Assembly (NCBI RefSeq): GCF_000455345.1
Contig: NZ_HG315691.1
Span: 754,217 to 818,216, forward strand
Direction: 5' to 3'
DNA: 64,000 nt
From: Halopiger goleimassiliensis
GTDB taxonomy: Archaea > Halobacteriota > Halobacteria > Halobacteriales > Natrialbaceae
Numbering within the stretch: position 1 is the first letter of the stretch; the number at the start of each line of letters is the position of its first letter. The notes beneath the pieces were generated by a model that was not told where the DNA came from, ran no database searches, and was given only the letters and a program-made list of their open reading frames with translations. Below are positions 23,129 to 56,851 of this stretch, piece after piece. The translations under genes and the position numbers were made by a program.

Positions 23129-23144
23129 TTTAGGTTAGCCTAAA
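23129..23144. promoter_or_regulatory. DtxR/Idr-type iron box 1
   Basis: TTTAGGTTAGCCTAAA is a near-perfect palindrome matching the TTAGGTTAGCCTAA core recognised by DtxR-family metalloregulators (Idr/SirR in haloarchaea). It lies 36 bp upstream of a second box, ahead of siderophore genes. Repression under iron sufficiency is inferred. Confidence 0.8.
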
Positions 23145-23164: not shown

Positions 23165-23180
23165 TTTAGGTTGGCCTAAA
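23165..23180. promoter_or_regulatory. DtxR/Idr-type iron box 2
   Basis: TTTAGGTTGGCCTAAA is one base off box 1 and again palindromic. It overlaps the likely TATA region (CATTATTTAGG) and ends 4 nt before the ATG at 23185. A bound repressor would block the core promoter. Confidence 0.8.
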
Positions 23181-53232: not shown

Positions 53233-53958
53233 GTGCTCGACGCCAATCAGCTCCTCGCCATCTCGGCGCTGGTGTTCGTCGTCACGACGCTCGCGTTCCT
53301 CGTCTGGTCGCGTTCGCTCTCGCCCGAGAGTCGACGCTACGGCTACGTGGTGACGATTGCGGCCGGTGCGATGGCCGTTTCGTACGTCGTGATGACTGCC
53401 ATCGAGTTCACAAACAGCGGTACCACTGACCTCGTCCGTTTCCTCGGGTACACCGGGTTGTGGCTCCCGATCATCTACGTCATCGCTGCCGTCGCCGGCG
53501 TCGGCACGCGACTGACAGGGGTCCTGTACGCCATCGTGCTGGGTCGCGTCTGGATCACGTACGTCGCCGGGTTCCTCGACGGCGTGCTCGCAACCGTGGG
53601 ATCGTTAACCCCGATTGCCCTGTTGTTCGCGGGTATCTACGTGTTGTTCGGACCGTACACGCACGTGGTAAACACGCAGTCGCCCCAGCGTCGCCTGCTC
53701 TTCAACAAACTCAAGTATCTCGTCGTACTCGCCTGGATCGGTCTCGTCGTCAACGGCCTCATCTCCGGCATGGGTCTCGTCGACGACTTCGTCGGCCAGA
53801 TCTCGCTCATCTACGTCGAGGGGATCCTCGTGATCGGCTTCGGAGGCATCGTTCTACGTAGCCCCGACGCACTCGAGGACACCGCCGAGGCCGGAGCCGC
53901 CGGTGACGACGGCTCCCTCGAGCGGGTCGAGGCCGGCGACTCCCAGCCCGCGGACTGA
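53233..53958 (+). CDS. sensory-rhodopsin-II-like 7TM protein lacking the retinal lysine
   Basis: A 241-aa, seven-helix protein from GTG (helices about 7-25, 36-57, 67-90, 94-115, 118-140, 158-180, 187-208). It aligns end to end with Natronomonas SRII from memory: shared TLAF...RRY...AVSYVVM, LFGPYTH, KLKYLVVLAW and IGFGGIVL. Helix G reads SLIYVEGILVIGFGG, placing Val200 where the Schiff-base Lys205 should be and Glu196 at Asp201. Helix C reads RFLGYTG, with Gly72 at the counterion Asp75. Tyr194 matches SRII Tyr199, which contacts the transducer. The gene follows the HtrII-like transducer, in the same order as htrII-sopII. Covalent retinal binding appears impossible; its signal is unknown. Confidence 0.85.
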   Translation: MLDANQLLAISALVFVVTTLAFLVWSRSLSPESRRYGYVVTIAAGAMAVSYVVMTAIEFTNSGTTDLVRFLGYTGLWLPIIYVIAAVAGVGTRLTGVLYAIVLGRVWITYVAGFLDGVLATVGSLTPIALLFAGIYVLFGPYTHVVNTQSPQRRLLFNKLKYLVVLAWIGLVVNGLISGMGLVDDFVGQISLIYVEGILVIGFGGIVLRSPDALEDTAEAGAAGDDGSLERVEAGDSQPAD

Positions 53959-54188: not shown

Positions 54189-54497
54189 TCACTCCTCGAG
54201 GTGTTCGATCCCTTTCTTCGAGACGTTCGCTTCGGTGATCTCGTCGGGCATCCAGTCGGGTTTGTCGTCGGGTGCCGTCTCTTCCCAGGCCCAGCCGTCG
54301 TAGATGTGTACCTTGTCGGTCCCCTTCTCGCGGAGTCGGAGTTCGACCCGATCGGCCTCCTCCTCGCTCGGTCCGGGCTCGAGCCGTCGGGCCGCTTTCA
54401 GTGCTGCCTGCCGTGGCGTGTTCCCCGAAAAGACGCTAGTTTCCTCACCATCCGACTCGCGCAGTGCGAAGTTTCGCTTACCGTCTTCACGTACCAT
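54189..54497 (-). CDS. chromosomal protein MC1
   Basis: A 102-aa DNA-bending nucleoid protein of the MC1 family. KRNFALRESDGEETSVFSGNTPRQAALKAARRLEPG is the family's conserved core, followed by ELRLREKGTDKVHIYDGWAWEE. Haloarchaeal MC1 proteins are acidic overall with a basic face. The start MVREDGKRNFALRE is clear. It is transcribed divergently from the small gene at 54726. Confidence 0.92.
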   Translation of the reverse strand: MVREDGKRNFALRESDGEETSVFSGNTPRQAALKAARRLEPGPSEEEADRVELRLREKGTDKVHIYDGWAWEETAPDDKPDWMPDEITEANVSKKGIEHLEE

Positions 54498-54725: not shown

Positions 54726-54923
54726 ATGGTACGGAAAAAGAAGCTGAGTCCGAGCGGTGCGAAAGACGAAGACGGCAACTACCACAACGTCCACCTCAAC
54801 CTCCACGAGGACGAACTCGCAGTCGCGGGGATGGACATCGGTGACGAGGTGTTCGTCCGGGTCCGAGACGGCAAGATCATCATCCAGAAAGCCGACGAAG
54901 ACGACGTCGAACACGAATTCTAG
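54726..54923 (+). CDS. 65-aa SpoVT/AbrB-like protein
   Basis: A 65-aa protein starting VRKKKLSPSGAKDEDGNYHNVHLNLHEDELAVAGMDIGDEVFVRVRDGKIIIQKADED. The strand pattern and VGDEVxVRVxDGxIxIxK resemble a SpoVT/AbrB DNA-binding domain. An AAGTATATCC promoter lies about 30 nt before the ATG. It may act as a small regulator or dimeric nucleoid factor. Conservation among haloarchaea is likely but cannot be checked here. Confidence 0.75.
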   Translation: MVRKKKLSPSGAKDEDGNYHNVHLNLHEDELAVAGMDIGDEVFVRVRDGKIIIQKADEDDVEHEF

Positions 54924-55122: not shown

Positions 55123-55136
55123 TTAGGTCTACCTAA
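55123..55136. promoter_or_regulatory. iron box (upstream) of the 55-kb operon
   Basis: TTAGGTCTACCTAA is a perfect palindrome of the DtxR/Idr type. It stands just upstream of a TATA-like TTTATACT (55141-55148), overlapping the BRE position. Confidence 0.7.
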
Positions 55137-55156
55137 CTATTTTATACTCGCCTTGC

Positions 55157-55172
55157 TTTAGGTTAGCCTAAA
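55157..55172. promoter_or_regulatory. iron box (downstream) of the 55-kb operon
   Basis: TTTAGGTTAGCCTAAA is identical to the box at 23129-23144 before the siderophore operon. It abuts the ATG at 55173 and lies between TATA and start, so a bound regulator should block transcription. Confidence 0.8.
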
Positions 55173-56063
55173 ATGGTCGGCGCGACACTCGACGACATTC
55201 GGCGATACGTTGAATCGATAGCCAGCGATTCCGGCGACTACGTGCTCGTCTGCGGCCGGACGGGCGAACGGCCGGTTCCCGCCGCGGGGCTCACGTTCGA
55301 CACGCGCCCGACCGCTCGAGCGGCTGCGCGAGCGACCGAGCAGTATCGGGCCGCCCTTCGACGATACGACCCGCAGGTGCCCTACTACGACGTCGTGGTC
55401 TGTCAGCGGTCGGCCGCCGGGCGAGACTCGGACCCGGAGCGCCGCCGATCGTCCGAGACCGAGGACCCACTCGATGACCGCGCGTCGATGATCGACTTCT
55501 GTCACACCGTCGCCGGCGCGGTCTTCGAGAGCGTCGCGGCGTCGTCGTACACGGACGTCGAAGACGCGATCATGGACACCTACTTCTCGGTCGCCGAATC
55601 CGTCGACGGGCCGGACGAACTCTGTATCCGCCTGATCGAGAGCATGGCGACGGAACTCGAGGACTCCCTCGACCCCGACGAGCAACGGGAGATCCTGCTC
55701 GCGAGCGCGAACCGGCTTCCGCCCGGTCCCGCCGACGAGGAACCGCTCGAGTCGGCGCTGTCGCGACTCCAGGCGGCGACGGTCCTCGAGGCGTTCACGC
55801 TCGATCCCGACTCCGATGACGCCGACGAAACCGCCGGGTCGTGGACCGTCACGCTCGACGAGTACGCGTTCGGCGACTCGGACGAACGGCTCGTCACCTT
55901 GCCAATCGTCCTCGACGTGTTGCGCCGACGGCCGGACCGCGAACTCGAGATTTCCGCGGTCGAACGGCTCTCCGAGGAGTCCGCGACGTGGCGACTCGAC
56001 GTCTCGACGGAGGCGACGTCGTCGAACGGCCTGATCCACGCCTCCCCGGAGCCCGAACCATGA
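55173..56063 (+). CDS. iron-box-controlled haloarchaeal protein of unknown function
   Basis: A 296-aa acidic protein. The first 90 residues (TLDDIRRYVESIASDSGDYVLVCGRTGERPVPAAG) form an alpha/beta-like segment. The rest is mostly helical, with VFESVAASSYTDVEDAIMDTYFSVAES. No signal peptide or transmembrane helix is seen, so it is cytoplasmic. The ATG abuts an iron box and lies about 25 nt after a TATA-like TTTATACT, giving a leaderless, iron-regulated mRNA. It overlaps the next gene by 4 nt. The family appears haloarchaea-specific. A role in iron homeostasis is inferred only from control. Confidence 0.7.
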   Translation: MVGATLDDIRRYVESIASDSGDYVLVCGRTGERPVPAAGLTFDTRPTARAAARATEQYRAALRRYDPQVPYYDVVVCQRSAAGRDSDPERRRSSETEDPLDDRASMIDFCHTVAGAVFESVAASSYTDVEDAIMDTYFSVAESVDGPDELCIRLIESMATELEDSLDPDEQREILLASANRLPPGPADEEPLESALSRLQAATVLEAFTLDPDSDDADETAGSWTVTLDEYAFGDSDERLVTLPIVLDVLRRRPDRELEISAVERLSEESATWRLDVSTEATSSNGLIHASPEPEP

Positions 56064-56851
56064 CCGTCGAAACCCTCGTTCACCGCGCGATCGACCGCGT
56101 CGACGGCGAACGCGAGCAAGTCGCGGCCCACCGCGAGAGCGTCGAGCGGTTCGCCAAAGAGGTCGCCGACCTCGACCCGGTCGAGGTAGACACGCCGACC
56201 CAGCCACGTCTCACGGACGGCGGGATGGTGACGACCATCGATCGCTCGGACTCGACGGCGGACCGGTGCCGGCAGGTCCGGGAGTCGTTCGCCGAGACGA
56301 TCCGGCCCCACAGCGTGACCGACGCCGACGACGAACCGTTGCTCGAGACGATCGGCGAGGAACTCGGCCGCGATATCGCCGTCGCGCTAGCCCCCGGAAC
56401 CGACGGCGCGTTCACCCCGCAGGTCAAGCGTGCCGTCACCTCGGCGACCGCCGATCGTCGGGCCGAACTCGAGGCGTTCGACCTGGCGCTCGAGCGCGAA
56501 GCCGACTCGCTCGAGGCGGCCCGATCCGATATCGACGTGATCACGGCGTGGCTCTGCCGTGCGAACGAGACCCCCCTGCTGGAACTGGATTTCGAGGCGC
56601 TTCGCGAGCGCCACGAGACGCTCGAGCGCCACCGCGAGCGCTGTCGGGACCTCCTGCGCGAGCGACAGTCGGTCCTCCAGGAGACGGCGACGTACAACGG
56701 CAGCGCCGGCGTCCGCCAGCGAACGGTCGCCGGTTTCCTCTACCGGGAGTTTTCGACCGCACATCCCGTGTTGACGACGGCCCTTCGGCTCGAGGAGGTC
56801 TGTGCCGACTGCCAGCGGACGGTCCGGGATCACCTCACGCGACGGGTCTAA
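56060..56851 (+). CDS. DUF7260-like helical protein
   Basis: A 263-aa protein, nearly all helical, starting at the ATG that overlaps the previous stop (ATGA). LVHRAIDRVDGEREQVAAHRESVERFAKEVADL begins a coiled-coil-like bundle. A later ERHRERCRDLLRERQ helix and a C-terminal VCADCQRTVRDHL with a CxxC follow. It resembles haloarchaeal DUF7260 proteins, by recollection only. Coupling to the iron-box gene suggests a joint task. Confidence 0.65.
   Translation: MTVETLVHRAIDRVDGEREQVAAHRESVERFAKEVADLDPVEVDTPTQPRLTDGGMVTTIDRSDSTADRCRQVRESFAETIRPHSVTDADDEPLLETIGEELGRDIAVALAPGTDGAFTPQVKRAVTSATADRRAELEAFDLALEREADSLEAARSDIDVITAWLCRANETPLLELDFEALRERHETLERHRERCRDLLRERQSVLQETATYNGSAGVRQRTVAGFLYREFSTAHPVLTTALRLEEVCADCQRTVRDHLTRRV

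Follow-up and report, generated by a model that had tools for sequence, protein, structure and literature searches.

What do two haloarchaeal proteins with no recognizable activity contribute when iron is scarce? The question arises from a two-gene operon of Halopiger goleimassiliensis, encoded within a 64,000-nucleotide stretch of contig NZ_HG315691.1 (hereafter the window). Gene A (55173..56063, + strand) specifies a protein of 296 aa and gene B (56060..56851, + strand) one of 263 aa, with the stop codon of A and the start codon of B overlapping by 4 bp (ATGA, 56060-56063). A sequence-only reading of this DNA had proposed an uncharacterised iron-starvation function for the pair, offering siderophore handling, iron-protein turnover or regulation as options.

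The promoter supplies the first part of an answer. Two copies of the palindrome TTAGGNNNNCCTAA, both with zero mismatches, lie before gene A: a distal box (TTAGGTCTACCTAA, 55123..55136, no strand assigned) directly 5' of a TATA-like element (TTTTATA, 55140..55146, + strand), and a proximal box (TTAGGTTAGCCTAA, 55158..55171, no strand assigned) over the inferred transcription start. Elsewhere the 64-kb window has no exact sites except a comparable pair, also unstranded, at the siderophore biosynthesis operon (23130-23143 and 23166-23179). The proximal box of A-B equals the one at 23130, and 17 bases that include it, CTTTAGGTTAGCCTAAA, are identical in the siderophore promoter; the shared box is proximal in the A-B promoter and the distal member of the pair in the siderophore promoter. 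A box identical to that of the siderophore operon had been said to abut the start at 55173, and a single base indeed separates the proximal box from this ATG. The second box, described as overlapping an upstream promoter element, fits as well, since with TTTTATA between the boxes the distal one overlaps the region just 5' of TATA. The center of TTTTATA lies about 30 bp 5' of the ATG of gene A, implying a transcript that is probably leaderless or nearly so, with the start site placed from the TATA position. This arrangement recurs: the element keeps its position between the boxes in orthologues, and in 30 of 32 orthologous two-box promoters a TATA-like stretch is flanked by boxes at a spacing of 33-36 bp. 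Genomes with longer leaders do contain small ORFs between box and A, none of them conserved as a leader peptide.

Directly 5' of the A-B boxes is a gene for a 65-aa protein (54726-54923) with weak SymE/MazE (SpoVT-AbrB-like) similarity; farther 5', on the opposite strand, lies a gene for an MC1 chromosomal protein (54189-54497). The gene at 53233-53958 directly follows that of a methyl-accepting transducer; its product weakly resembles the bacteriorhodopsin family (E 3e-4, below cut-off) and is possibly a sensory rhodopsin relative.

Genome-wide (3.9 Mb), the exact box occurs 24 times, compared with 1 occurrence of a mirrored control and about 1 expected from base composition, and the boxes are thus not due to chance. 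Those that could be assigned precede siderophore ABC transporters, siderophore biosynthesis genes and a flavoprotein gene, with a DtxR-type regulator and Dps nearby. Pfam confirms Peripla_BP_2, FecCD, SBP_bac_8, the DtxR-type regulator, Dps/ferritin and the siderophore-operon aminotransferase as members; an ABC ATPase, a DUF5059-plastocyanin lipoprotein and an HTH_10 regulator are also found behind or beside boxes. The siderophore biosynthesis operon begins with a class-III aminotransferase gene, followed by IucA/IucC genes, and the DtxR-type regulator, which carries both N- and C-terminal Fe_dep_repress domains (L010:3030-3527), itself adjoins iron boxes. Judged by sequence, the boxes mark an iron-starvation regulon of the FerR kind, with the response to iron itself predicted. 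Such a regulon has been described for Haloferax, and the fhu genes of Haloferax volcanii carry ferR signals, as cited in PMC11349517.

The DUF5059 and plastocyanin-like lipoprotein gene lies directly behind an iron box (L008:1374-2885; G000:C1 about 691.4-692.9 kb). At two Halorubrum loci (L157, L164) a large lipoprotein gene, apparently related to it when judged by eye, sits behind a box immediately 5' of A; its product is a possible further regulon member. The HTH_10/BAT-type regulator gene starts 78 bp behind an exact iron box (L016:2677-3339; G000:C2 about 379.7 kb), and the paralogue of gene B in the same genome (C1:881008) has no iron box nearby.

Iron control of A extends well beyond this species. 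A perfect box occurs no more than 300 bp 5' of the gene at 61 of 111 orthologous loci (a set that includes the window's own locus), and the mirrored pattern at none. A named set of 74 loci shares part of its genomes with the larger set and is not independent of it; here 43 loci have their own box and none the mirrored pattern, while 23 of the other 31 belong to an operon, inferred from a shared strand and gaps under 300 bp, with a perfect box further 5'. Most of these operons specify ferrisiderophore ABC transporters, many together with a thioredoxin-reductase-like flavoprotein that lacks CxxC. A box therefore precedes the gene or its inferred operon at 66 of the 74 loci. Of the eight that are left, half immediately follow genes for siderophore uptake or a flavoprotein, and some are near contig ends. 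Orthologues that generally lacked the boxes would have spoken against iron control; both sets point the other way.

The proteins themselves belong to families for which Pfam states no function. A joins DUF7552 (residues 5-79; E 2e-35, 121.1 bits against a curated cut-off of 27) to DUF7551 (residues 106-290; E 1e-63, 215.2 bits against 52.6), and B is a DUF7260 protein (E 1.4e-69, 234.6 bits against 27); both are full-length members. Apart from a sub-threshold HBS1_N match, the Pfam search returned only these DUF families, in agreement with the initial description of two proteins without transport or enzyme signatures: no transport or enzyme family, FhuF or siderophore-interacting FAD domain, metal-site family, protease, chaperone or Fe-S assembly domain was found in either. 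None of the papers searched names DUF7551 or DUF7552. DUF7551 is present in 168 of the 292 Halobacteria genomes sampled, and DUF7552 is confined to Halobacteria within the phylum sample. An identification of A as an RdfA/Sph3 cell-shape protein was set aside, as nothing indicated that RdfA is a DUF7551 protein; in PMC11349517, iron starvation raises Sph3 17.7-fold.

A is acidic, has no transmembrane stretch and is rich in cysteine (1.85%, versus 0.80% in neighboring proteins). Among 65 aligned A proteins, the invariant or near-invariant residues include R10, C27, R29, R45, Y58, R59, R63 and D66 in DUF7552, and C110, H111, F118, E119, Y137 and C151 in DUF7551; the conserved Cys/His and Arg residues suggest that A may bind a ligand. 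Its AlphaFold2 model has a mean pLDDT of 90 and a pTM of 0.69, a value that leaves the arrangement of the two domains uncertain. B has no hydrophobic stretch and is predicted to form a bundle of soluble-looking long helices (mean pLDDT 89, pTM 0.82), for which a fold search gave only generic helical bundles and spectrin-like repeats and was uninformative. B adjoins A at 45 of 111 loci, and most of these share the 4-bp overlap.

One reading of the A structure is that the protein senses rather than handles: DUF7551 would bind siderophore, haem or NO in the manner of H-NOX or V4R proteins, B would be its output partner, and A would tune the iron response or the importer. We give this reading a low but real probability. 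It draws on a VIA-align comparison of A, in which residues about 107-282 matched H-NOX, V4R (MopR, PoxR) and Bet3 structures, which share a fold superfamily, at Z 5.5-7 over about 150 residues, and on the resemblance of the DUF7551 N-terminal helices to the N-terminal end of a PAS histidine kinase from haloarchaea (E 1.3e-4). However, VIA Z scores below 8 often arise by chance, and Foldseek with the A model found nothing at E below 0.001. The HNOB sequence profile does not match A in Pfam, and profile-profile comparison of DUF7551 with HNOB and V4R gave no signal (hhalign HNOB probability 0.2%), although HNOB and V4R alignments built from the same phylum do recognize each other; a solved-structure search with the A profile returned nothing up to E 10. 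The kinase match falls below the Pfam cut-off, and neither A nor B has a DNA-binding or kinase domain. Given no sequence or profile signal, the faint, unproven match of DUF7551 to the H-NOX/V4R fold superfamily is kept only as a lead; a true resemblance would fit a sensor just as well as an iron handler. The kinase in question is encoded two genes 3' of A (L167:6033-7292) and matches DUF7551 positions 8-75; several genomes have a similar family near A.

Gene neighborhoods bear on the process that A serves. Genes of the Peripla_BP_2/FecCD families occur within 4 kb of A at 32 of 80 loci, mostly immediately 5' and on the same strand. Whole haloarchaeal genomes hold about 4.8 Peripla_BP_2 matches each, so that such proximity would be expected, by estimate, at about 1-2% of random places. 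DUF7260 is encoded directly 3' of A at 26 of the 80 loci and a flavoprotein directly 5' at nine; DtxR-type and Dps genes recur nearby, and a NifU-like gene appears in some neighborhoods. In other species A lies inside ferrisiderophore importer operons, an arrangement absent from the window itself. An FAD oxidoreductase adjoins A in several clades, and on annotated plasmids of Halosolutus, Halobellus and Halobacterium A is likewise accompanied by importer and FAD oxidoreductase genes in the same order. For Haloferax mediterranei, Table 2 of PMC11218638 shows that an NAD(P)/FAD-dependent oxidoreductase with a neighboring locus tag falls together with siderophore genes and those for iron permease and ATPase.

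The FAD half of the flavoprotein is related to thioredoxin reductases, and the CxxC motif is absent except in one overlong ORF call. Its gene is not adjacent to A in the window or in Natrinema-type loci; here the orthologue, 48% identical, follows an iron box of its own (C1:994446) that lies 169 bp before the ATG. A-B and the flavoprotein are therefore separate units of one regulon here and neighbors elsewhere. Genes encoding DUF7552 without DUF7551 are also found behind boxes, with DUF7260 or the flavoprotein as partner, a pattern that points to DUF7552 as the module's core. At two loci with this stand-alone DUF7552 variant (L281, L284) the box, DUF7552 and DUF7260 adjoin an opposite-strand gene with P-type metal ATPase sequence.

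These neighborhoods also bear on two explanations in which A and B handle no siderophore. They might take part in iron sparing or in the turnover or repair of iron proteins (such as Fe-S or haem protein maintenance), being merely co-regulated with uptake. Stand-alone boxed A-B operons distant from transport genes, as in the window and Natrinema, would suit this idea, as would Dps and the NifU-like gene in some neighborhoods. At many loci, however, A lies within a ferrisiderophore transporter operon, a linkage that co-regulation alone does not need, and the absence of protease, chaperone or Fe-S assembly domains weighs further toward regarding the explanation as quite unlikely. Less credible still is a role within the ABC importer, with A and B as soluble accessory subunits that regulate its ATPase from the cytosol and do not handle iron. 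Such a role would match the operon place right behind substrate-binding protein, permease and ATPase genes and the helical, soluble B, but not the many loci without a nearby transporter gene, the conserved Cys/His and Arg residues that suggest ligand binding, or the FecCD-type importers themselves, for which we know of no cytosolic accessory subunit of this kind.

Among the options first offered for an iron-starvation function, then, gene neighborhood favors siderophore handling. With the boxes conserved, A a member of importer operons and the remaining regulon concerned with siderophores, A and B very probably belong to the iron/siderophore acquisition pathway. Co-occurrence with iuc genes had been put forward as a check: the association is positive and only weak (53 of 77 iuc-positive genomes hold DUF7551, as do 115 of 215 iuc-negative genomes; p = 0.02, ignoring phylogeny). 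This weakness points to a link with siderophore uptake, not with production of the cell's own siderophore, and it fits a role in using siderophores, foreign ones included, rather than making them.

More specifically, we propose an iron-repressed accessory module of ferrisiderophore acquisition, a mechanism that, taken whole, we regard as plausible at somewhat short of even chances. As long as iron is available, both palindromes would be occupied by a DtxR-family regulator of the FerR/Idr type, which would block TBP/TFB and RNA polymerase; starvation for iron would lead to joint production of A and B. Both would be soluble in the cytosol and act at the step just after a FecCD-type ABC importer delivers the ferrisiderophore. 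A would hold the ferrisiderophore or the released iron through the conserved Arg-rich surface of DUF7552 and a putative Cys/His site in DUF7551, the thioredoxin-reductase-like flavoprotein would work with A by donating the electron that reduces Fe(III) to Fe(II) for release, and B would be a frequent helical partner or scaffold of A. Computation shows the boxes, the regulon, the conservation, the operon linkage, the domains and the conserved residues, from which we infer that iron represses the operon, what A binds and where in the cytosol the pair acts, that the flavoprotein cooperates with A, and what B does; placement after import draws on the cytosolic look of the proteins, the need for release in the cytosol, the dithiol-less flavoprotein found with A and the conserved Cys/His/Arg residues.

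Comparison with known systems helps to delimit the proposal. FhuF, SIP/ViuB and IruO-type flavoproteins are bacterial ferrisiderophore reductases or interacting proteins, and they are alike in the proposed place of action, a cytosolic step after import. The flavoprotein accompanying A recalls IruO of Staphylococcus. In contrast, FhuF and SIP have no sequence relationship to A or B in Pfam, and A, not itself a flavoprotein, would serve as partner or iron acceptor. It is conceivable, and on present evidence doubtful, that DUF7552-DUF7551 proteins are the first of a class of haloarchaeal cytosolic ferrisiderophore iron-release factors, with a Cys/His ligand, service by a CxxC-less flavoprotein and a DUF7260 partner, unrelated to the FhuF, SIP or esterase routes. 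The haloarchaeal FerR/Idr (DtxR-family) regulon is alike in its target classes, shared palindrome and nearby DtxR-type genes; A and B differ as targets in being proteins without assigned function. The regulon itself is already known. Leyn and Rodionov 2015, reportedly the source of the ferR signals at the Haloferax volcanii fhu genes, may list the A-B genes as hypothetical targets.

To our knowledge, the release of iron from imported siderophores has not been worked out in archaea. Three Pfam families of no stated function here gain the context of an iron/siderophore pathway, and candidate genes (A, B and the flavoprotein gene) and residues (C27, C110, H111 and C151) are at hand for genetic and biochemical testing, with relatives present in genetically tractable Haloferax.
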